The position numbers were made by a program, and so were the translations under genes. Shown here in pieces: positions 36,928 to 50,116 of a DNA stretch of 64,000 nt. The notes beneath the pieces were generated by a model. It saw only the letters and a program-made list of their open reading frames with translations. It searched no databases and was not told the origin of the DNA. Within the stretch, counting starts at the first letter, position 1. The number at the start of each line of letters is the position of its first letter. The stretch comes from Gemmatimonadota bacterium. Its GTDB lineage: Bacteria > Gemmatimonadota > Gemmatimonadetes > Palauibacterales > Palauibacteraceae. The stretch spans positions 1 to 64,000 of the forward strand of contig JAJDWE010000050.1 of assembly GCA_022825725.1 (NCBI GenBank), written 5' to 3'.

Positions 36928-39900
36928 TCAGAAGCCGGGCGTCAGATTGAACTGCCAGAGCCAGCCCTTGTCGGGACGATCGAATGGCCGCACGAAGCTG
37001 AGTTCGCCGATCATGAGGCCGAAGAGGTTGACCCGTGCAAGAAGGCCGGCGCTCGACACCCAGTTCCGGTCCTCGAACGAGCAGTTTCCATCCGGGCAGT
37101 TCAGGGGCGTTTCCCCCGACCACGCCTTGCCCATGTCATAGAAGAGGCCGACTTCGACCGGCGGTACGCCGGGGGCCCGGATCACGCCGATCCCGCCCAG
37201 GAGAGGAAGCCGCAGTTCCACGTTGCCTACCGCCACGCGGTTGCCGATGAGATTCGCGATGAGAGGACAGTTGAAGAACGCGGCCTGACCCGAGCTCGTG
37301 CATTCGACGACATCGATGGACCGGTTGTCGTATCCGCGAACGAGGGATGGCACCCCGAGGTAGAGTCGGCCCAGGCGCGGGTCGTCAGCTCCGCCGCCCC
37401 AACGGCCGAAGTGGAGGGCGCGCCCGGCGACCGTGAAGGGCCCGGCACGAACATATTGCCGAACGTCGCCGGTGACCGTGAGGAAGTTGAGGGTCCCCAC
37501 CGCCGGCTCCACTTCCAGACGGTAGCGCTGCCCGGCGATCGGACTCGTGCCGCCAAAAATCGAACTGTCGTATACGAGGGCCGCGCTTCCGCTCGCCGTG
37601 TACAGCGACTCGAAGGCGCAGGGCTGAGCCCCGAACGACACGATCTCTCCCACGCAATCCGGCAGATCCGTTTCCTCCTGCGCCAGCAGTTGACCCGTGA
37701 AGGCGTCGAAGCCGAACTCCTCGATCTCGCCGGAGAAGTCGATCTGGCGTGCCGAGGCGGAGAACTCGATCCGCGAGTTCCGGTTGAAGGGATAGGCGAC
37801 GATCCCGGTCAGCTCCCGGTTGACCTCGAACCAGCGGAAGTCCCGGAAGACATTTATGTACCTTCCCCCGGCCTGAATCGACTGGAACCCGATCTGGCGC
37901 GTGACCAGCGGCACCTGGCCTCCGATCATCGCCCAGTTCCAGCGGCTGGACCGGTTCTCGTAGCCGGCGAGGAGCGCCGTCCCCTCAATCAGATTCCCGA
38001 AGGTCGTATTGACCTGCAGGATCGTCTGCAGCGTGCGGTTTCCGAGCAGGTCCGAGAAGAAGAGGCTCGCGCCGCCCGCGAAGAAGACCCCGAAGTCACT
38101 CGCACCGAAGGCGATCGTAGGCTGCGAGATGAAGTCGAGGGACAGCCGCGACTGGAACTCGCCTTCCTCGAAGGTGATCGGATCGGCCAGGCCGAGGCGG
38201 GCGTTGGAGAGCAGTTCCGCGTGCGTGGTCGACATCCGTTCCCGCGGCGGGATGATCGAGGCGTCTACGCCCACGAGCATCTCGGGCGCCGGCTCCCCCG
38301 CCAGAACCTCCGGGTCGTCGATCACGTAGATCTCGTAGCTGAACGGACCGCCCTTGTTCACGCTGAACGCGACATCGCCGGTGGCGCGGGCGACGGACAC
38401 GGCCGGGCTGATGGCCGTGAGTCCGCTGACGCCGGTCCACAGGTCGGTGACCAGGTACCGCTCCCGCGTCTCGAGGTCGAGCCGGTAGAGATTGGCGATC
38501 CCGTCGTGGTCCGACACGAAGTACAGGCTCCGGCCGTCCGGGGACCACTGCGGATTGTAGTTCCTGAACTGGTCGTCGAAGCCCGGCAGCGGCTCGATCT
38601 CCCCGCTCTCCAGATCCACCAGCGCGACCTGGTAGGTTCCCGGGACGAGCAACTCCAGGTCGGTCGTGAAACGGTCCGTCGCGAACGCCACCGACCGGCC
38701 ATCGGGCGACCACGCGGGCTGGAGGTCGGCAAACGGATCCTCCGTGAGCCGCCTCAGCTGCCCGGTCTCGACGTTGATCACATACAGGTCGGTGAATCCG
38801 GCGGAGTGGCCGCTGAAGGCGATGTGCGACCCGTCCGGCGACCAGCTCGGCGTGAAGATCGCGCCCAGCCGAAACCCCTCGACCGGGATCTCCCTGACGA
38901 TGTTTCCGCTCTCCGCCTCCATGATCGTGAGCAGCGGATTGCCCGTCTTGATGCCGGCGACCGCGAAGAGCCGGCCGTTCGGGTGCCAGTCGCCCGCCGA
39001 GTGGATGAACTGCAGGCTCTCGAAGTGCGGGTCGACCGCGTTGTTCGTGAGGCGCCGCTTCACTTCTCCGGTGCGGGCGTCGGCCCCGAACATCTCGATG
39101 GAGAAGAGGTCGCTCTGCGAGACGTAGACCATGTCCAGGCCGTTGGGACTCAGCGCCGGGCCAAGGTGGAGCTTCCCCTCATCGGGAGGCTCGTAGACGA
39201 CGCGGCGCCCGTAATCGTCGGGGGGGCGGGTCTCCTGACGCGCGTCCGCGAAATACGTCTCAAGTTCGTTCTTCCAGCGGTCCGATAGCTCTCCGATCGG
39301 CACCTCGAGGACGGCTTCGATCGCCGCCAGCGCGTTCCCGGTGCGGGCGGCGAGGTTGAGAATCCGACCGATGCGGTCGTCCCCGAACGCGCCGCCGATG
39401 TAGGACCAGAACGCGTGGCCGTACCGATACGGGAAGTACCGCCTGTCAGAGAGTTCCGGAATCGTCGGAAACCCGTCTTCCAGATCCAGGGCGTCCCGCA
39501 TCCACATCGTCGTGAACGGGTCGATGGGGCCGATCGAGAGGTATTCGGCCATGCCTTCGATGAACCACAGCGGGAGCCGGATCGCGCCGGGCACGTCCAG
39601 CCCCGGGCCTCCCGTCCCCTGCCCGGTCATGTCGAACTGGAAGGCGTGCACGAGTTCGTGGCCGAGCAGGTGATCGGTCTCGTGGAGCGACACCATCATC
39701 GGCATGACGAGCCGCCGCTTCAGGATCTCCGTGAAGCCCTGGGTGCCTTCGTCGATGAACTGGCCGGAGGTGTTCGTCTGCTCGAAATCCGGATGGTCGG
39801 CGTAGAGGATGATCGGCTGGCGCTGGCGGAACTCGTGATTGAGTACCCGGGAGAGGCGGGCATACCAGCGCTCCGCGAGGCGCCCCACCATCTGCGCGCC

Positions 39901-40089
39901 GACCGCGCTGTCCTCGTAGTAGTAGATGTCGAAGTGCTGCGTCTTGAGCACCTCGAAGTCGAAAGACTCGTAGACCACCTTGTTCCGGCCGAAATACCGG
40001 CCGGCCTGCCCCTCCAGCGCGGCGGCGGCGGGACCCGAGAAGACCGCGAGAGCGGCGAGCGCGACGAGCGCATGAGTTCTCCGATGCAT
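36928..40089 (-). CDS. Peptidase - WD40-like propeller - outer-membrane barrel fusion protein
   Basis: A 1053-aa exported protein with three parts. After a signal peptide (residues 1-24), a gluzincin-like domain carries HELVH (144-148) and WFIEGMAEY (175-183), a complete zinc triad. A TolB/PD40-like propeller follows (about 320-650) with repeated WSPDGR motifs. The last 380 residues are beta-rich with alternating aromatic strands, and a final segment ends in aromatic-x-F (LTPGF), as in Omp85/D15-type barrels. It would sit in the outer membrane with a protease domain facing the periplasm or outside. ATG at 40089 has GGAGG upstream; the longer frame is noise. Confidence 0.82.
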   Translation of the reverse strand: MHRRTHALVALAALAVFSGPAAAALEGQAGRYFGRNKVVYESFDFEVLKTQHFDIYYYEDSAVGAQMVGRLAERWYARLSRVLNHEFRQRQPIILYADHPDFEQTNTSGQFIDEGTQGFTEILKRRLVMPMMVSLHETDHLLGHELVHAFQFDMTGQGTGGPGLDVPGAIRLPLWFIEGMAEYLSIGPIDPFTTMWMRDALDLEDGFPTIPELSDRRYFPYRYGHAFWSYIGGAFGDDRIGRILNLAARTGNALAAIEAVLEVPIGELSDRWKNELETYFADARQETRPPDDYGRRVVYEPPDEGKLHLGPALSPNGLDMVYVSQSDLFSIEMFGADARTGEVKRRLTNNAVDPHFESLQFIHSAGDWHPNGRLFAVAGIKTGNPLLTIMEAESGNIVREIPVEGFRLGAIFTPSWSPDGSHIAFSGHSAGFTDLYVINVETGQLRRLTEDPFADLQPAWSPDGRSVAFATDRFTTDLELLVPGTYQVALVDLESGEIEPLPGFDDQFRNYNPQWSPDGRSLYFVSDHDGIANLYRLDLETRERYLVTDLWTGVSGLTAISPAVSVARATGDVAFSVNKGGPFSYEIYVIDDPEVLAGEPAPEMLVGVDASIIPPRERMSTTHAELLSNARLGLADPITFEEGEFQSRLSLDFISQPTIAFGASDFGVFFAGGASLFFSDLLGNRTLQTILQVNTTFGNLIEGTALLAGYENRSSRWNWAMIGGQVPLVTRQIGFQSIQAGGRYINVFRDFRWFEVNRELTGIVAYPFNRNSRIEFSASARQIDFSGEIEEFGFDAFTGQLLAQEETDLPDCVGEIVSFGAQPCAFESLYTASGSAALVYDSSIFGGTSPIAGQRYRLEVEPAVGTLNFLTVTGDVRQYVRAGPFTVAGRALHFGRWGGGADDPRLGRLYLGVPSLVRGYDNRSIDVVECTSSGQAAFFNCPLIANLIGNRVAVGNVELRLPLLGGIGVIRAPGVPPVEVGLFYDMGKAWSGETPLNCPDGNCSFEDRNWVSSAGLLARVNLFGLMIGELSFVRPFDRPDKGWLWQFNLTPGF

Positions 40090-40299
40090 ACAACCTCCAC
40101 CAGGAAACCACTGCTCTCGACCTTCCCGGGTTCCTGGACCCCGGGGGGCCGTGCCGCATCGCGGACGGCACACAGTCAAGGGGTGCCGAAAGCTACCCGA
40201 GGCACCCGACCTCCGCTATTGCGATCTGTGTCGACACTAGCACGACTGAAGCGCGGGAAAGGTCACCTCCTCGCCGACCGTCAGTCTCCCCCGCGACCG

Positions 40300-40947
40300 T
40301 CAGCAGCGGCGCATGAACCCGCCGAGCGACTCGCGTGCGCGGCCGGCTGCGGGCTCGTCCGCGAAGGGGCCGGCCACGACGCGGTACATATCTTCGTACG
40401 GCTCGATCGAGGCTTCGAACCCCGCCCGCACGACCGCCTGTCGTTTCGCCTCGGCGCTCTGACGCTCCCGAAAGGCCGCGACCTGGACGAGGACGCAGCC
40501 GCCGCGCGCGGAGACCGCGTTCGCCGCCTCGATGATCGTAATCCGCACGCGCGCCGTGCCGGGGCCGATCATGCCGAGCGCCCTCGCGGCGGCCCGGGAC
40601 ACGTCCAGGATGCGCCCGCGCACGAAGGGGCCGCGATCGTTCACGTCCAGTTCGATGGAGCTCCCGTTGTCGAGGTTGTCCACGCGGATCCACGTGCCGA
40701 ACGGGATCGTTTGGTGGGCGGCCGATATTTCATCCATGTCGTAGGTGCCCCCGGCCGCCGTCGTCCGACCGTGGAACGGCTCTCCGTACCACGAGGCGAT
40801 ACCGGTCTGCGTCCAGCCGACGGCGTAGAGCGAAGGGTCGCTGGGCGGCGCGGTCGGCGCGGTCGCGAGCGGCACGGACCACACACAGGCCTGCCCGGAG
40901 AGCGCGATGGCGAGCGCCCCGCCGAACGCGACCCTTCGCCGGCTCAG
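40300..40947 (-). CDS. rlpA: RlpA-like lytic transglycosylase with SPOR domain, probable CTG start
   Basis: A 215-aa exported septal protein. The RlpA double-psi barrel has GIASWYGEPFHGRTTAAGG, TIPFGTWIRVDN and the catalytic-type VNDRGPFVRGRILDVSRAAA. A SPOR domain (CVLVQVAAFRERQSAEAKR) closes it and targets denuded glycan at division sites. CTG at 40947 overlaps the upstream stop as CTGA and gives a compact signal peptide (SRRRVAFGGALAIALSGQAC). No ATG, GTG or TTG in frame preserves that signal. A weak GGGAG lies about 11 nt upstream. Confidence 0.85.
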   Translation of the reverse strand: MSRRRVAFGGALAIALSGQACVWSVPLATAPTAPPSDPSLYAVGWTQTGIASWYGEPFHGRTTAAGGTYDMDEISAAHQTIPFGTWIRVDNLDNGSSIELDVNDRGPFVRGRILDVSRAAARALGMIGPGTARVRITIIEAANAVSARGGCVLVQVAAFRERQSAEAKRQAVVRAGFEASIEPYEDMYRVVAGPFADEPAAGRARESLGGFMRRC

Positions 40948-42317
40948 AGCGGCCCCCGCTCCCAGGGTCCCCAGATCGCGAACGTCTGGCCGAGGTTCCC
41001 CGCCCCCATCGAGATCGTGTCTCCCTGGAGGTTGATGAAGAGCGTCCGGCCGTCGGGCGTGAAGCAGGCGCCGGCGAACTCGCGTTCGTTGAGGAGATTC
41101 CGGGCGAAGGGGAAGATCTCCCCCTCGGGCGACAATCCCCGGAGGTGCGTTTCCCCGGAGTTGTCCTCGCAGATGAGGATTCCGCCCCGGGGACTCACGG
41201 TGAGGTTGTCCGGACCGGAGAGCACGTCCTCCGACGGCGACTCGAAGACGAGCGCGAGCGCCTCCTCGTCCGGTACGTACCGCCAGACCTGGCCGAGTTG
41301 CGCGTCGCCCCCGTTGGTCGCATGGAAATAGATGCTCCGGTCCCCGTACCAGCAGCCCTCGAGCCGGGAGAACCGGGCCCCACCCGCCTCGAACCCCTCC
41401 CTCCACACGGTGGTCGGGCTGCGCTCGGCCTCGGGGGGGTCGGGGTTCTCGATGGGCACCCATTCGACTTCACGCCACGCCCCCGGCTGCTGGCCGGTGC
41501 GGAGATCCACCTGCGGCGCCCCCCGCACGGCGAGCATCTCCAGAACGCCCCCGTCCCGGAGAACGCCGGGCGTATGGGGGCGGAAGCGATAGAACCCGGA
41601 GCGACGATTGAAGTCTTCCGTCTCGTAGACGAACCCCGTCGCGGGGTCCACCGCGATCGCCTCGTGCGTGAACCGTCCCATGTCCCGTAACGGCTCCGCC
41701 CGGACCGGTCCGTCCGCATCGGCGGGGACCTCGAACACATACCCGTGCGGCATCGTCCAGTCGCGCCCCGGTCCGAAGGTCGTCTCCTCGCACGTCAGCC
41801 AGCTGCGCCAGGGCGTCGTCCCCCCCGCGCAGTTGATCATCGTGCCCCCCGCGCTCACGAAATCCCGCAGGAGGACCGGACTCCCGTCCGCCTCGATCCG
41901 GACTTCCAGCGTCGTCGTGCCCCCGCCCGCCAGGGGATCGTACGCCAGTTCGGGGGGGACCAGCGGAACCGCGACGCCGGGGGGATCCTGATCCTCATGG
42001 TTTCGCACCAGGCGGACGACATCGTCGGTTACCGGGAAGAGTCCCATTCCGTCGTGCGCGCGGGGCGTGGGCCGACCGTCCGACATCGGACGGCCTTCCA
42101 CCCCGAGGACGGCGTAGGAAAACCCCTCGGGAAGGGCGAGTTCCGGGCCTGCGGGGCGCAGGGGTCCGTATCCGGCGGGTCCGCGAGCCGTCCGGCGCGG
42201 GGACGCGGCTGCGGGGCCGGCACATGCGGCGAGACCCGAGAGCGAAGGCGCGAGCGCCGCGGCCCCCGCCCAGCGTCCGGCGCGGCGCACGAAATCTCGT
42301 CTGTCGATCTTGCTCAG
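40944..42317 (-). CDS. Tat-exported PhoX-like (DUF839) protein, probable CTG start
   Basis: A 457-aa protein of the PhoX/DUF839 family of calcium- and iron-dependent phosphatase-like propellers. A twin-arginine signal (IDRRDFVRRAGRWAGAAALAPSL) starts it. Propeller landmarks include AGGTMINCAGGTTPWRSWLTCEE, THEAIAVDPATGFVYETED and GPDNLTVSPRGGILICEDN. The only start keeping the twin-arginine motif is CTG at 42317, with GGAGG 5 nt upstream. A GTG eleven codons in would remove it. It is coupled to rlpA by a CTGA overlap. Confidence 0.85.
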   Translation of the reverse strand: MSKIDRRDFVRRAGRWAGAAALAPSLSGLAACAGPAAASPRRTARGPAGYGPLRPAGPELALPEGFSYAVLGVEGRPMSDGRPTPRAHDGMGLFPVTDDVVRLVRNHEDQDPPGVAVPLVPPELAYDPLAGGGTTTLEVRIEADGSPVLLRDFVSAGGTMINCAGGTTPWRSWLTCEETTFGPGRDWTMPHGYVFEVPADADGPVRAEPLRDMGRFTHEAIAVDPATGFVYETEDFNRRSGFYRFRPHTPGVLRDGGVLEMLAVRGAPQVDLRTGQQPGAWREVEWVPIENPDPPEAERSPTTVWREGFEAGGARFSRLEGCWYGDRSIYFHATNGGDAQLGQVWRYVPDEEALALVFESPSEDVLSGPDNLTVSPRGGILICEDNSGETHLRGLSPEGEIFPFARNLLNEREFAGACFTPDGRTLFINLQGDTISMGAGNLGQTFAIWGPWERGPL

Positions 42318-42364
42318 CGGCTCCTCCGTAACTGCCTCGGGACGGCACCCGCGGCATGTTGCCG

Positions 42365-42539: not shown

Positions 42540-43319
42540 ATGCGGCACTCGCTCCTGCGCCTTCCGGGGCCGGTCCTGTTTCTGGCCATCGCGAACACCG
42601 CCGCCGCCCAGTCGTTCGTCGATTTCTGTCCCGGCGGCGACGAGGCGACGGAGGCGGCGGTCGTGGGCTACGTGACGGATCCCGAAGCGGAGACGATCGT
42701 CCCCGGCGCGACCGTGGCCGCGAGCTGGGTGCAGGACGACGCCCGTCAGCGAATCGAGGTACAGACGGACATCCAGGGTCTCTATGCGCTCTGCGGGCTG
42801 CCGCAGGGCACGGAGATCACGCTGCGGGCCCTCCTCGGAGACCGGCGCGGAGAGGCCGTTCCCTACGCGACGTCCGCTCCGCTGGCCCAGGCGGATCTCT
42901 TCATTTCGCTTACGGGGGAACCCGAGACGAGGGAGGAAGTCGGATCGCTGGCGGCCGGCGGCGGCAGGGGCCAGGCGTTCAGCTCGGAAGTGATCCGCGC
43001 GGAGGACCTCCTTCATCTGCCCGAGATGAGCGTGTACGAACTGCTGCGCCGGCACCAACTCCTCAGATTCGACCGGATGAGCACGCTGGGCGAGGTCATC
43101 CTCCTCACGTCCGCGACCTCGAGTCTCCGCGCCGGTCGCCTGCAGTCCGTCCAGGTGAGGATCAACGAGCGGCGGGAGGTGGACGGCGTCGCGGCGATCC
43201 GCGACCTGTCGATCGATGAGGTCAGCCGGATCGAGATCCTGACGCGTACCGAAGCTTCCGCGCGCTACGGCGGAGACGGTTTCGTGGGAGCGATCGCGAT
43301 TACAACGCGAGGCCGCTAG
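42540..43319 (+). CDS. Secreted plug-like protein without a barrel, copy 1
   Basis: A 259-aa protein with a signal peptide ending at AAAQS and a carboxypeptidase-regulatory-like fold (VVGYVTDPEAETIVPGATV ... GLYALCGLPQG). The C-terminal region looks like the end of a TonB receptor plug: SVYELLRRHQLL, SIDEVSRIEILTRTEASARYGGDGFVGAIAITTRGR. In SusC-like receptors this would lead straight into the barrel, but here the protein stops. It is a tandem paralogue of the next gene. It may be a periplasmic module that works with a receptor such as the one at 47504. The ATG at 42540 opens the signal. Confidence 0.72.
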   Translation: MRHSLLRLPGPVLFLAIANTAAAQSFVDFCPGGDEATEAAVVGYVTDPEAETIVPGATVAASWVQDDARQRIEVQTDIQGLYALCGLPQGTEITLRALLGDRRGEAVPYATSAPLAQADLFISLTGEPETREEVGSLAAGGGRGQAFSSEVIRAEDLLHLPEMSVYELLRRHQLLRFDRMSTLGEVILLTSATSSLRAGRLQSVQVRINERREVDGVAAIRDLSIDEVSRIEILTRTEASARYGGDGFVGAIAITTRGR

Positions 43320-43345
43320 CCGGCTTCGGAGGGAGAGCAGTCGAC

Positions 43346-44128
43346 ATGCCGTACTCGTTCGTGCGCCTTTCGGCGCCCGTCTTGATGCTCGTGGTCGCAA
43401 ACTCCGCGGCCGCCCAGTCCTTCGCCGATTTCTGCCCCGGCGGGGATCCGGAGACGGAAGCGGCCGTCGTGGGCTACGTGACGGATCCCGAAGCGGAGAC
43501 GATCGTGCCCGGCGCGACCGTGGCGGCGAGCTGGGTGCAGTTCGACGCCCGCCAGCGCGTCGAAGCCGAGGTCGGCATGGACGGCCTCTACGCCATCTGC
43601 GGGTTGCCTCAGGACATGGATGTCTCGTTGCGGGCCCTCTTCGGAGACCGGCGCGGTGAAGCCGTCCCGTACGCCACGGCCGTCACGCTGGCCCAGCAGG
43701 ATCTCTTCCTTTCCCTGACCGGGGCACCCGAACGGAGGGAAGAGGTCGGCTCCCTGGCCGGGGGGGGCAGCCGGAGCCGGATCCTGGGCTCCGAAGTCAT
43801 CCGCGCCGAGGATCTGGTGGATCTCCCGGAGATGAGCGTGTACGAGCTGCTGCGCCAACACTCGCTCCTGAAATTCGACCGCATGAGCACCCTCGGCGAG
43901 GTCATCCTCCTCACGTCGGTGACGTTGAGTTCGTGGGGGTCGTTCCGGGAGCAGGCGATGGAAGTACGCATCAACGAGAGGCGCGAAGGCGATGGCGTGA
44001 ACGCGATTCGCGAGCTGTCCATCGACGAGGTGAGCCGGATCGAGATCCTGACGCGCACGGAAGCTTCGGCGCGCTACGGGGGCGACGGCTACATCGGGGC
44101 TCTCGTGATCACGACGCGCGATCGCTGA
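43346..44128 (+). CDS. Secreted plug-like protein without a barrel, copy 2
   Basis: A 260-aa paralogue of its upstream neighbour, 26 nt away, with long identical blocks (AAVVGYVTDPEAETIVPGATVAAS; MSVYELLR; FDRMSTLGEVILLTS; SIDEVSRIEILTRTEASARYGGDG). A signal peptide ends at AAAQS. Again there is a carboxypeptidase-regulatory-like part and a plug-like part with no barrel. Differences cluster in the linker around residues 130-145 and near 190-205. The duplicate pair is probably one transcript and may form a hetero-oligomer; this is inference. Confidence 0.72.
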   Translation: MPYSFVRLSAPVLMLVVANSAAAQSFADFCPGGDPETEAAVVGYVTDPEAETIVPGATVAASWVQFDARQRVEAEVGMDGLYAICGLPQDMDVSLRALFGDRRGEAVPYATAVTLAQQDLFLSLTGAPERREEVGSLAGGGSRSRILGSEVIRAEDLVDLPEMSVYELLRQHSLLKFDRMSTLGEVILLTSVTLSSWGSFREQAMEVRINERREGDGVNAIRELSIDEVSRIEILTRTEASARYGGDGYIGALVITTRDR

Positions 44129-44142
44129 CGGACGGGCCCCGT

Positions 44143-47100
44143 TCAGGGGATCAGGCGCACGAGTTCGGCGTAGGTCGTGCGCTCGATTTCGTTCACCGCC
44201 GCGGCCCGCTCCTCGATTCCGAGCCCCAGCCGGGCCAACAGATCGATCTGTCCCTGCGTGGGCGGGCCGTCTCCCATCGAGGCGAACCCCATGAGCCGGG
44301 CCAGCTTGCTGTCGATGCCCGTCGGGTTCGCGATCAGGTCCTGACCGGCGCGAGCCCGGTACTGCACGAGCCGCTCCTCGATCGGGTAGAGTTCGCGATT
44401 GAGGTCGGCGAGCGCCGCCTCCAGCCGGTCTCCTCCGCCGCCACGCTCGACGGCCTCCCCGGCCAGGGCGCGCATGTCCCGGATCTTCGCCACGAGTTCC
44501 ATCGTCTCGGTGAGGCGGTCCCGCGCCTCGAGGAGGAACTCGAACTGTGCCCGCAGTTCCTCGTCCGTCACATCGACCCTCGGATCGCGTACGACCGTGA
44601 AGGGCTGCGAGAGGGTCCGCTCGCCGAGGTCCAGCTCGACGGTGTAGTCGCCGGGCGGCACGCGAGGACCCTGGGCGCTTCCCTGGAAGACGGCGCCGTC
44701 GAGCACATCGGCCGACTCCACGCGCAGGTCCCACACGAAGGTGTGCGCGCCGGCGTCGGCGGAGAGCGTCGCGCCGCTTCCGCCCAGGCCGAAGAAGCCC
44801 GCCCCGGCCGGTTCCGGGGCCGTCTCGCTGGAGAACTCGCGGATCAGCGCCTCGCCCTCGCGGATCCGAAGCGTGATCCCGCCCGGCACGGCCTCCGGCA
44901 GGTAGTACGGGATCACGACGCCATCCGGCGGATTCGCACCGGCCGGATCCCCCGCGCCCGGCCGGCCCATGGTCGAGAACAGTGCGGCGGGTGAGGCGCC
45001 CGGGTTGAAGCGGGTCGTGGTCGGCGGACGGAAGAGCCTCGGCTCGCTCGCCGCTTCCCCGGCCGCGAGCTGATGGAGCAGGTCCACGTTGTCCAGGACC
45101 CAGAACGAGCGCCCGTGCGTGGCCGCCGCGAGGTCCCCATCCCGGAGCACGAGGTCGTGGATGGGGACGACCGGGAGGTTGAGGCTCAGCGGCTGCCAGG
45201 AGTCCCCGGCGTCGAACGAAACATGGACCGTGCGTTCGGTGCCGGCGTACAGGAGCCCGGCCCGGCCCGGATCTTCGCGGATGACACGCGTGAAGTCGTT
45301 GTCCGGGATCCCCGCCGTGATCCGTGTCCACGTCTCCCCGTAGTCCGTCGTCCGGTAGAGGTAGGGCGCGTGGTCGGAGAGCTTGTACCGCGTCGCGGCG
45401 ACGTACGCCGTCGCGGGATCGTGAAGCGACGGCTCGAGGATGGAGATCAACGCGAACTCGGGCAGATCGGGAATCGTCACGTTCTCCCAGTTCGCGCCGC
45501 TGTCGCGCGACACGTGGATGTATCCGTCATCCGATCCCGCCCACAGGAGCCCCGGCTCGAGCGGCGATTCGGCGAACGCGAAGATCGTCGCGTACCATTC
45601 CGGACCGTACGCCTCCCGCGTGATCGGCCCCCAGTATTCTCCCGTTTCCTCGTCTTCGTATGCCGGCGTCGGCTCCAGCGTCCTCGGGTCGGCGCGCGTG
45701 AGGTCGGGGCTGATGATCTCCCAGCTGTGACCCTCGTCCGTCGTCCGGTGGACGTGCTGCGACGTGACGTAGAGGACGTCCGGATCGTGAGGCGACGTCA
45801 TGACCGGATACGTCCACCAGAACCGGTAGTTGATGTCCGCCGAACCCCAGCCGTAGTGCGTCTCGGGGTTCGGGGAGATGTCCCGCACCTGCCGGTTGCG
45901 GTGGTCGTACCGGTACACCCAGTGGTGATCCCCCGCGTAGACGATGTTCGGATCCTCGGTGTTCACCGCGATGTAGCCGTCTTCGCCTCCGCCCACGGTG
46001 TACCAGTCCTCGATGCTGATGCGGCCGAAGTCCGAGCGGACGGGGATGGAGATCGACGTGTTGTCCTGCTGGGAAGCGTAGAGCCGATACGGCGTCTGGT
46101 GGTCGGCGGTCACATGGTACATCTGCGCCGTCGCCTGGTTGAGAAGACTCGACCACGAGAGGCCGCCGTCGAAGCTCACTGCGGCACCGCCGTCGCCCCC
46201 GTTGACCATCCGCCGGGGATTCGCGGGATCGATCCACAGGTCGTGGTGGTCCGGGTGCGGCGTGAAGACGCGCTCGAAGGTCTCGCCGCCGTCCGTCGAC
46301 TTCCAGAGGAAGACGTTGAGGACGAAGACCGTATTCTCGTCGCCGGGGTCCGCGACGATGTGGTGGTAGTACCACGGGCGCTGGAGGAGGTTGGCGTCCT
46401 CGTTCACGCGGGTCCACGTCTCTCCCGCGTCGTCGGAGCGGAAGATCCCCTTCGCGCCGCGCGCCGCGTCGACGATCGCCCACAGACGACTTGAGTTCCG
46501 CGGCGAGACGGTGATGCCGATCTTTCCCTTGAGACCCGATGGGAGGCCGGGGTTATCGGTCAGCTCGGTCCAGGTGTCGCCGCCGTCCGTGCTCTTGAAG
46601 AGTCCGGTGCCGGGGCCGGCGCTGCGGAAGCCCCAGGGGAAGCGCCTCAATTCCAGGAACGACGCGTACAGGATGTCCGGGTTCGCGGGATCGAGGACGA
46701 GATCGATCGCGCCGGTGTCCTCGTCCCGGTAAAGGACCTTCTCCCAGTTCGCACCGCCGTCGCGCGTCCGGTAGACGCCGCGCGCCTCGCTCGCGCCCCA
46801 GGCGTCGCCGAGCGCCGCCACCCAGGCGATGTCGGGGTTCTCCGGATGTATGCGCACGCGGGCGATCTGAAGCGTCTCCGCGAGCCCGAGGTGCCGCCAG
46901 CTCGCGCCCCCGTCGTCGGAGCGGTAGACGCCGTCACCGTGCGAGGCGTTGCCGCGGAAGCACGTCTCGCCCATGCCGACGTAGACGATTTCGGGGTGGG
47001 AAGTGCTGACCTCGACGGCCCCGACGGAGCCGGTGCCGAAGTAGCCGTCGGAGACGTTCCGCCAGTTCGCCCCGCCGTCCCCGGTCTTCCAGACGCCGCC

Positions 47101-47329
47101 GCCGGCGGTGCCCTGGTAGAAGACGAGATCGTCCGTGGGGTGGCCGGCGACTCCGAGCACGCGGCCGCCGCGGGTGGGTCCGATCGAGCGCCATTCGAGG
47201 AGATCGAGCCATCCGTCGTCGACGGGGCTGGGCGTGTGCGCCCGCGGGAGCGGAAGTGCCGAGCAGCGCCAGCGCGAGCAGGGTCCGTGCGATTCGGGTC
47301 GTCGGTCGGGCGATGCGGGATTCTGCCAC
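44143..47329 (-). CDS. Secreted VPS10/BNR-repeat protein, apparent +1 frameshift after the signal peptide
   Basis: A large exported propeller protein (about 1060 aa once corrected) of the sortilin/'glycosyl hydrolase' BNR-repeat type. Repeats like DGGANW, STDGGDTW and SDDAGETW recur, each with the Asp-box pattern S/T-x-D-x-G-x-x-W, and a C-terminal helical domain follows. The signal peptide (GTG at 47329, to GAHAQ) is in a different frame from the rest. The break is at a run of four C on the coding strand (47224-47227), where one extra base would explain it. A real pseudogene and a sequencing slip are both possible. Confidence 0.75.
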
Positions 47330-47503
47330 GGTTGCCGTATCCTTCGGAAGTCGTCAGTGCGGCCGAGCCCCGAATCTTGCGCTCCGTCCGCGCGCCGTAC
47401 AGCGCGGGAGGATGGATGGCGGGGATGGTCGGGGTTCGGCGGCGACGGCCGGGGTCCGGCGCCGCACGTTGGCGCTCGGCGCGAGCGCGTGTGAACATGC
47501 GGG

Positions 47504-50116
47504 ATGACCGACCCGCGGATCTCACCCGCGCCGTTCGTGCTGGGGACGCTGCTGCTCGCCGGGGCCGCGACGTACTCCGCCGCCTCGCCCCGGGCCGCCG
47601 AGGCGCAGGCCCGCCCGCCGGGTCGCGCCTCCTCGGACACGCTGGCAGCCCACGAGCGGACGGACGCGGCCATCGAGGTTCTTGCGCGGGCGGAGATTCT
47701 CGAGACCGGACAGGCGGAATTCGCTTCCGTCCTCAGCGAACTCCTGCCATCGGCCTACTTCCCGCGACGGCAGGTTGCGGATCTCACGTCGGGGGTTCGA
47801 CCCTTCCAGCTGCGCGGGCTTTCGCCGGACCACACGCTCGTCCTCCTGAACGGGAAACGCCGCCATGCCACGGCGGTCGTTCACACGCTGGGCGGCGGCG
47901 CGTTTCCAGGCGCGAGCGGCGTGGACATCAACGCCTTCCCGCTTCAGGCGATCGACCGCGTGGAGGTCGTGCGCGACGGAGGCACGGCGCGGCACGGCTC
48001 CGACGCGATCGCCGGCGTCATCGACGTGCGTCTCCGGAACACCGTCTCGGCGCCCGAATTCATCGCCTCCGTCGGCCACCACTTTCCGGACGAATGGGAT
48101 GACGACGGACTTCGCTACGACCTCTCCGGGAACTGGGGACTGGGCATCGGCCGCGGCGGTGTCCTGAACCTCACGGGCGCATTCAGCCAGCGGGAACCCG
48201 TGAACCGCGCGGGCGCCGATGGCCGCGACCAGATCCTCCCGGGGGACGCGGACTTCGTCGATCGGGGTCTCGTCATCCGCAAGCACAACGAGGTGGCGCA
48301 GCCGAACCACCTGTGGGGAGACGGCGAGTCCTCGAACTTCATGTTGTACGCCAACCTCGAACTCCCCCTCACGGCCGTGCGCGGCGACTCCGGGGGCGCC
48401 GAACTCTACGCGTTCGGCGGCTACGGTCGGCGCCGGGAATTGCACTCGGACTTCTTCGTGCGCTCGATGGACGACCGCAACTGGCCCGGGATCCATCCGC
48501 TGGGCTTTCTGCCGAACTTCGACACCGACACGAGGGACGTTTCTCTCGTCACAGGCTTCCGGCGCTCCGGGGCCGGCTCCCGGCATCGCGCCGAGGCCGG
48601 CTTCACGGGTTGGAGCTGGGACCTTAGCGCGCAGTACGGCGCCAATCGGATCGACAACGAGTTGTTCGATACGCTCAACCCGTCGCTCGGACCCTGCCTC
48701 GAATCCGCGTGCGCGCCCGGTGCCGACGGGATTCCCGGCACCGCGGACGACCCCGGGATTCCGAACGGGACCCGGTTCTCCACGGGCGCGCTCGAAAACC
48801 ACCAGTTCCTTGCGAACGCGGATGTGGGGCGTCGGATCGAGACGGGATTCGGCGCGGGGCCGTTGAGCCTCGGACTCGGGGCGACGTTCCGCGTCGACGG
48901 CTACCGGATTCTGGCGGGAGAACCCGCGTCGAGGATCGACGGCTTTCACCCCACCCAGAGCGGCGGCGTCGCGGCGGCGGGCGCTCAACGCTTCACCGGT
49001 TTCCGGCCGGAGGAGTCCGGGAGCTGGTACCGGTCGAGTGTCAGCCTCCACGGTGACGTCGACGCGCCGCTTGCACGGTGGCTCCTGGTCTCCGCGACGG
49101 GACGCTACGAACGCTTCAGCGACGTCGGCGGCACGCTGAACGGGAAGCTCGCGCTGCGCCTCGCGCTCTCCGGGACCGCCGTCTTCCGCGCGAGCGCGTC
49201 CACGGGATTCCGGCCGCCCGCGTTGAGCCAGTCTCACTACGGACACGTGACGGCGGGGCGTCGCGCAGACCCGGACGAGCCGGGCTCGATCCTGGGGTTC
49301 GAGGCGGGCACGTTTCCGGTGGACGCTCCGGAAGCCCGGGCCGTCGGCGCGTCGCCCCTCCGGGGGGAGGGGTCGCGCTCCGTCGGCGCGGGGCTTGCGC
49401 TCACGCCGGCCGACGAACTGCACATTACGATCGACGGGTATGCGACGGAGGTCGACGACGCCGTCCTCCTCTCCAACCCGCTGGAGACGGGCGCCAGCGG
49501 CCTCCTCGAGCTTCTGCTGGCGGACTTCACCGCGGAATCGATCCGCTTCTTCTCCAACGCGGTCGACCTGCGGTCGTACGGCATCGACGCGGGGGTCACG
49601 TGGGGGCGGCGGCTTGGGGACGCGTCACGCCTTGAGTTCGGCGCCTCCGCGAACTGGGGGCAGGTGCGCGGGCGGTGCCCCGACGGCGACATCGCGGCCT
49701 GCGCGAAGGAGAACGAGGCGCTGCGGGACGAATCGTTCAGGATCTACGACGGGTTCGACGTCTTCTTCCTCGAGGAGGGACGCCCGGACTGGCGCGGCCG
49801 GTTCAAGACGAGGTTCACGAGCGGAGCGTTCGAGTTCGGCGTGGGAGCGAACATCTACGGATCGCAGGAGGAGCTGCGCTCGCTCGGCGTCGGAGAGCAC
49901 CCCCACAGGATCCGGCTCCTCGAACCGAAGGTCACCTTCGATGCGGGAGTCCACATCGACGTGGCGGAAAGGTGGCGCCTCACGGTCGGCGGCGAGAACC
50001 TCTTCGATGCCTTCCCCACGCGGGTGGACGCGTTCGGAGGAATCTTCCCCTACCGCTCGTTCTCTGCGATGGGATTCAACGGCCGCTACCTGTACGCGCG
50101 CCTGCAGGTCTCCTAG
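47504..50116 (+). CDS. TonB-dependent outer-membrane receptor
   Basis: An 870-aa receptor. After a signal-like segment the plug domain (about 55-180) has RPFQLRGLSPDHTLVLLNGKRRH and IDRVEVVRDGGTARHGSDAIAGVIDV, the typical end of a plug. The rest is a barrel of alternating aromatic strands, with a terminal YLYARLQVS. The ligand is unknown. There is no clear CarboxypepD repeat at its own N-terminus, so it is an ordinary TBDR rather than SusC-like. The gene is divergent from the BNR gene and 174 nt away. ATG at 47504 is used; upstream candidates are out of frame. Confidence 0.88.
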   Translation: MTDPRISPAPFVLGTLLLAGAATYSAASPRAAEAQARPPGRASSDTLAAHERTDAAIEVLARAEILETGQAEFASVLSELLPSAYFPRRQVADLTSGVRPFQLRGLSPDHTLVLLNGKRRHATAVVHTLGGGAFPGASGVDINAFPLQAIDRVEVVRDGGTARHGSDAIAGVIDVRLRNTVSAPEFIASVGHHFPDEWDDDGLRYDLSGNWGLGIGRGGVLNLTGAFSQREPVNRAGADGRDQILPGDADFVDRGLVIRKHNEVAQPNHLWGDGESSNFMLYANLELPLTAVRGDSGGAELYAFGGYGRRRELHSDFFVRSMDDRNWPGIHPLGFLPNFDTDTRDVSLVTGFRRSGAGSRHRAEAGFTGWSWDLSAQYGANRIDNELFDTLNPSLGPCLESACAPGADGIPGTADDPGIPNGTRFSTGALENHQFLANADVGRRIETGFGAGPLSLGLGATFRVDGYRILAGEPASRIDGFHPTQSGGVAAAGAQRFTGFRPEESGSWYRSSVSLHGDVDAPLARWLLVSATGRYERFSDVGGTLNGKLALRLALSGTAVFRASASTGFRPPALSQSHYGHVTAGRRADPDEPGSILGFEAGTFPVDAPEARAVGASPLRGEGSRSVGAGLALTPADELHITIDGYATEVDDAVLLSNPLETGASGLLELLLADFTAESIRFFSNAVDLRSYGIDAGVTWGRRLGDASRLEFGASANWGQVRGRCPDGDIAACAKENEALRDESFRIYDGFDVFFLEEGRPDWRGRFKTRFTSGAFEFGVGANIYGSQEELRSLGVGEHPHRIRLLEPKVTFDAGVHIDVAERWRLTVGGENLFDAFPTRVDAFGGIFPYRSFSAMGFNGRYLYARLQVS

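Follow-up and report, generated by a model that had tools for sequence, protein, structure and literature searches.

The N-terminal half of SusC/RagA-type outer-membrane receptors carries a carboxypeptidase-regulatory-like domain (CarboxypepD_reg_2), a TonB box and a plug domain (Pfam Plug, PF07715). The plug is normally described only as a gate inside the receptor barrel. Two tandem genes, here termed P1 and P2, encode proteins whose domain order is that of the N-terminal half of the SusC-type receptors of their own genome. They were found in the window, by which we mean the whole 64,000-nucleotide stretch of DNA that was analyzed. It is close to certain that P1 and P2 represent the front half of an outer-membrane nutrient receptor, comprising the regulatory-like domain and the plug, without the barrel.

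P1 and P2 are plus-strand open reading frames that each begin with ATG, their coordinates exactly as first noted. The features of the pair and of its flanks are as follows.

40944..42353, minus strand: PhoX family gene, divergent flank
42540..43319, plus strand: P1, secreted CarboxypepD_reg-like and barrel-less plug protein, 259 aa
42540..42611, plus strand: P1 predicted Sec signal peptide without lipobox (sequence reading)
42651..42902, plus strand: P1 carboxypeptidase-regulatory-like (transthyretin-like) domain
42936..42950, plus strand: P1 linker motif E-V-G-S-L, at the position of the receptor TonB box
42960..43310, plus strand: P1 plug domain, ending two codons ahead of the stop
43320..43345, plus strand: P1-P2 gap with Shine-Dalgarno-like GGAGGGAG (43328-43335)
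43346..44128, plus strand: P2, tandem paralogue of P1, 260 aa
43346..43417, plus strand: P2 predicted Sec signal peptide without lipobox (sequence reading; low-confidence part of the model)
43457..43711, plus strand: P2 carboxypeptidase-regulatory-like domain, residues 38-122, a beta-sandwich in the model
43742..43756, plus strand: P2 linker motif E-V-G-S-L, residues 133-137, in a segment of pLDDT <50
43766..44119, plus strand: P2 plug domain, residues 141-258, ending two codons ahead of the stop
44143..47673, minus strand: sortilin/VPS10-BNR repeat protein gene, convergent flank
47504..50116, plus strand: nearest complete TonB-dependent receptor (plug and barrel), beyond the BNR gene and in a separate transcription unit from P1/P2

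The two proteins are 75% identical across 260 columns. Their genes are spaced by 26 bases, with GGAGG preceding P2, and form a transcription unit of their own, in which P1 and P2 likely share a single transcript. The GC content at the three codon positions (0.71/0.50/0.85 for P1 and 0.68/0.48/0.87 for P2) agrees with that of real genes of the genome, while the long antisense open reading frames at the locus have values unlike those of real genes. Codon-position GC thus identifies the plus strand as the true coding strand.

Each protein consists of a plain signal peptide, a carboxypeptidase-regulatory-like domain, a short disordered linker and a plug, and ends at the last plug strand. The initial annotation had read in both copies a signal peptide, a regulatory-like segment and a closing plug motif with nothing after it; secretion, the plug-fold domain and an end at the point where a receptor barrel would start were borne out. 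The signal peptides (...ANSAAAQ/SF) were assigned by sequence reading alone, and the terminal 'ITTR' is simply the last plug strand. Two cysteines of the regulatory-like domain, Cys30 and Cys85 in P2 numbering, are invariant in the aligned family and are predicted to form a disulfide. Among the fold matches of this domain in the predicted model are transthyretin-like domains of carboxypeptidase D and sandwiches of a similar kind. Scores against the Pfam model CarboxypepD_reg (PF13620) were 24.4 bits for P1, below the cut-off of 32.3, with no match for P2; scores against Pfam Plug were 23.0 and 19.6 bits, both under the gathering cut-off of 23.9. The SusC signatures TIGR04056 and TIGR04057 of NCBIfam gave at best 13.6 and 15.3 bits (range 12-15) against cut-offs of 368 and 46. 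The closeness of P1 and P2 to SusC rests on these weak signature scores and on the best fold match described below. The curated family libraries gave no specific family for barrel-less plug proteins, and a sequence search of the PDB returned only chance-level matches.

The plug assignment was examined by profile comparison and by structure prediction. Alignment by hhalign of the family profile (21 orthologues) with 14 receptor plugs of the same genome gave a probability of 95.6 (E 1.2e-8), and alignment of the plug part together with plug-only relatives gave a probability of 97.4 (E 1.3e-11). These alignments span 95-97 columns, nearly the whole plug domain. AlphaFold modeling of whole P2 (pLDDT 78.1) predicted a transthyretin-like sandwich at residues 38-122, a disordered linker at 127-140 and an alpha/beta domain at 141-258. 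Since this two-domain model matched nothing but transthyretin-like or sandwich folds in a fold search, the plug part was modeled separately (pLDDT 85.2, pTM 0.79). The first 27 Foldseek matches of the plug-alone model in the PDB were TonB-dependent transporters, with the dextran SusC structure 8aa4 at the top and Cir also among the leading matches. Structure prediction thereby upheld the plug fold claimed at the outset. TM-scores to the query were moderate (0.4-0.6), indicating a plug-like yet diverged fold. Together, the profile comparison and the AlphaFold model confirm the predicted domain as a plug. PMC11658791, citing Usher 2001, describes the isolated FepA plug as behaving as unfolded; a free plug may therefore need a partner, or may be a changed fold with another function.

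A 22-strand beta-barrel was sought after P1 and P2 and was found neither downstream nor in any full-length copy of the genus. The P2 stop at 44128 lies 14 bases from the end of the convergent BNR/VPS10 gene at 44143, and the sole TonB barrel detected in the window belongs to the separate receptor at 47504-50116. Loss of a barrel by frameshift, against which the initial annotation had asked the downstream sequence to be checked, was ruled out, as that sequence contains none and the length of the protein is constant across the genus. No convincing plug-less barrel that might serve as a partner was identified in the genome: every PF00593 or PF14905 barrel above the cut-off has its own in-frame plug, and the sole candidate (C40:19882) is weak (19.8 bits) and lies in a frame that retains a plug-like stretch. 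Elsewhere in the window, the minus strand at 36928-40179 encodes a large secreted protein with an apparent WD40-type propeller followed by a surface-antigen-like barrel, and in most of the genus its gene is found near the P locus.

A search of public genomes placed the orthologues in Gemmatimonadota, several of them in records named Candidatus Palauibacter, and the source of the window is a marine Gemmatimonadota bacterium. The 17 genus genomes searched each carry one or two orthologues with 48-95% identity to P2. The resulting P family comprises 23 copies from 17 genomes and of nearly equal length; the 21 further full-length copies measure 259-266 aa and share the same end point. Searches of plasmids gave no matches. 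The usual order of the locus, kept in most genomes, is PhoX (divergent), P, BNR/VPS10 (convergent), the TonB receptor and an NHL gene. G002, G011 and G015 lack the BNR gene at this locus and G006, G013 and G014 lack the receptor, yet P is kept in all six; a functional tie of P to the receptor at 47504 or to the BNR gene was not supported on this ground. In the tree, in which several supports are modest, P1 and P2 form separate clades, each of which also includes single-copy species, indicating that the duplication predates those species and was followed by losses. The NG86 dN/dS ratio was 0.04-0.27 in 11 of the 12 pairs compared; the most distant pair had a ratio of 0.36. The plug was the most constrained part of the protein in most comparisons, with the exception of the most distant ones. 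P1 and P2 are maintained proteins under purifying selection, and not receptor debris. Two near-identical genomes, G001 and G016, also contain fragments of extra P copies together with pieces of PhoX and RlpA genes 8-10 kb away (L040 17174-18271, L055 1460-1552), which are the trace of a segmental duplication.

Profile searches of the same genome recovered at least eight further barrel-less plug proteins, among them longer ones of about 360-570 aa with regulatory-like domains. The longer type occurs in 39 of 55 good-quality genomes of the class, with up to 13 matches per genome and some 190 in total, and almost all of these frames are too short to encode a receptor. Many genomes of the class also encode plug-only proteins of about 130-240 aa, the majority of which have a lipobox. 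Across the class, well over a hundred free-standing plugs were found, in the form of plug-only lipoproteins, multi-domain proteins and an M56-TonB_C-plug fusion. The wide spread of barrel-less plugs is close to certain. The initial annotation had regarded a free-standing, duplicated plug as unexpected; this expectation was not sustained, given how common such proteins are in the genome and the class, and the duplication of P is an old one that a single sub-clade of the genus retains. Barrel-less plugs have been duplicated in tandem elsewhere too, as seen in a plug-only pair of a distant genome (L114 3483-4330).

Outside the genus, the closest plug relatives of P are lipoproteins of sister genera (L028 and L032; 31-34% identity). 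Members of the Gemmatimonadota barrel-less plug grouping proposed here are secreted, carry a plug at or near the C-terminus of a short frame and recur across genera. P1 and P2 share these properties and are one compact branch of this broad, modular group. The fusion protein, encoded in the same genome (L128 1961-3523, contig C28), joins an M56/BlaR1-type peptidase, a TonB_C domain and two partial plugs, all scoring above their Pfam cut-offs, and plug-like elements seem to be used in signaling proteins. Another protein of this genome (L003 1210-1917, contig C44; 235 aa) has a regulatory-like module 33% identical to that of P1/P2 and no plug, and its C-terminal domain matched nothing in Pfam or NCBIfam. 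Relatives of it occur in most genus genomes, indicating that the regulatory-like module is common to different proteins.

The genes around the plug-only relatives were compared. In one orthologous cluster spanning two genera (L170, L171 and L177, in G054, G066 and G078), a plug-only gene follows SusC and then SusD on one strand. At six other loci (L110, L172, L173, L174, L175 and L179), five of them orthologous within one genus, it is convergent with SusD and immediately 3' of it; at L115, about 650 bases separate SusD from the plug. SusD was present within the 4-kb flank at 6 of 20 plug-only loci of a first draw, whereas 5-20 SusD genes per genome would give an expectation of 0.3-0.9. The draw consisted of chosen short-frame matches, and several of its SusD calls were below the Pfam cut-off. 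When collapsed to ortholog groups, the count was 4 of about 14 (P about 0.00003-0.002). Proximity of plug-only lipoproteins to SusC-SusD is thus above chance by a result that is supportive rather than final, and it indicates accessory roles in TonB-dependent uptake. At L111 (3638-7770), a plug-only gene immediately precedes a complete receptor of SusC size on the same strand, an order opposite to that of the SusC-SusD-plug runs. Many plug-only lipoproteins are located away from receptors, and one group adjoins an M20 peptidase. The relatives behind these neighborhood data are distant ones with no regulatory-like domain. The genome of P1 and P2 gave zero SusD matches, in agreement with the low number of SusCD loci reported for Palauibacterales (PMC10469786), and the SusC-SusD association is therefore not directly applicable to P1 and P2.

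The linker ahead of the plug was compared with receptor TonB boxes. In receptors of the same genome, the plug is preceded by boxes such as DEIVVTG or ELTVTA, and longer barrel-less paralogues in the genus retain the receptor-like LAPIVVTA or EPLVVTA. At the same position, nearly all copies of the P1/P2 orthologues have E-[VIT]-G-S-L within the disordered linker, a motif that matches none of the receptor boxes of the genome and is not a canonical TonB box. According to PMC11658791, the activity of a TonB box is governed less by its side chains than by local structure, so the diverged linker may or may not bind TonB.

We tentatively favor, at a probability of about 0.4, a model in which P1 and P2, acting in trans, serve TonB-dependent transport as accessory proteins or as regulators. 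The architecture of the proteins, the SusC-SusD neighborhood of their relatives and the TonB_C-plug fusion suggest such a role. In this model, a group of proteins spanning the Gemmatimonadota keeps the receptor front half as a separate periplasmic protein, and P1 and P2 would belong to it as non-lipidated secreted members. The plug-like domain may dock to the periplasmic face of a receptor or to its energy-coupling partners, the regulatory-like domain could provide a second contact site, and P1 and P2 may be diverged versions, perhaps for different partners. No receptor partner is conserved at the locus across the genus. The initial annotation had suggested gating of another receptor, to which the plug-only lipoproteins beside SusC-SusD in other genera and the fusion protein lend indirect support; its alternatives were a periplasmic binder, for which nothing was found, and a new family. 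The main rival to a trans-acting accessory role is that the plug has been exapted into an ordinary soluble domain of the periplasm that has no part in TonB transport and serves, for example, in glycan, metal or peptide binding or in envelope stress, with the Cys-paired regulatory-like domain as the conserved core. This is possible, if somewhat less likely: the absent TonB box consensus, the absence of a receptor partner at the locus, the similar N-terminal module on a plug-less protein and the many plug-only lipoproteins remote from receptors, one group of them by the M20 peptidase, all agree with it, whereas most comparisons show the plug to be the best conserved part, relatives are enriched by SusC-SusD and the same genome encodes the TonB_C-plug fusion.

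Conservation of E-[VIT]-G-S-L at the TonB-box position, where the linker is disordered, together with the canonical boxes of the longer barrel-less paralogues, would also suit a decoy or energy-coupling modulator, in which linker and plug titrate or present TonB. However, the motif of the P family is unlike the receptor boxes of the genome, and we consider such a role improbable. It is more improbable still that P1 and P2 enter or occlude a barrel as a split or replaceable plug. A plug fold without a barrel would fit such an exchangeable gate, and there is one precedent in FhuA, whose plug and barrel, made separately, reportedly reassemble in vivo. Yet the barrels of this genome that exceed the cut-off all have a plug in frame, the weak C40 match retains a plug-like stretch, and the regulatory-like domain would be forced to remain outside the barrel. 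The half-receptor architecture could also be that of a truncated receptor in decay, but the near-constant length of the 23 copies in 17 genomes, a dN/dS far below 1, intact signal peptides and the lack of any barrel remnant refute this for practical purposes, by selection and conservation. A broader form of the trans-acting model, unlikely as it stands, is that a large undescribed class of stand-alone plugs acts in trans to regulate TonB-dependent transporters, its members serving as exchangeable gates, docking subunits or TonB competitors, with P1 and P2 as its non-lipidated two-domain form in Ca. Palauibacter.

The open-access library searched, which lacks most subscription papers, contained no description of barrel-less plug proteins as a class. 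The plug domain is known; the barrel-less class is apparently undescribed, ordinary for these bacteria and testable. The class-wide expansion of conserved barrel-less plugs, some of them encoded directly by SusC-SusD, suggests that the plug fold works alone and may act on receptors in trans. Such action would supply a missing component of the nutrient uptake of bacteria that are abundant and poorly cultured. The plug-only lipoprotein genes by SusC-SusD offer the best experimental entry point.

Compared with the N-terminal half of SusC/RagA-type receptors, P1 and P2 are likewise secreted and have the same domain order and predicted plug fold; they differ in the lack of a barrel, the diverged TonB-box position, the weak SusC scores and the absence of any SusD match in the genome. 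The plug-only lipoproteins of Gemmatimonadota (such as L028, L032, L104, L116 and L118) have the barrel-less plug in common with P1 and P2; unlike them, most have a lipobox and lack the regulatory-like domain, and several lie beside SusC-SusD. The M56-TonB_C-Plug-Plug fusion also contains plug segments without a barrel, in its case within a signaling-type architecture with a membrane peptidase and a TonB C-terminal domain. In the longer barrel-less proteins (L128 12756-14081, L011 754-1842), as in P1 and P2, the plug follows regulatory-like domains, and the N-terminal domain of the L128 protein resembles that of P1/P2 (35% identity) and has the Cys pair. Unlike P1 and P2, these longer proteins possess a further regulatory-like domain, extra plug cysteines and, in several cases, a canonical TonB box.
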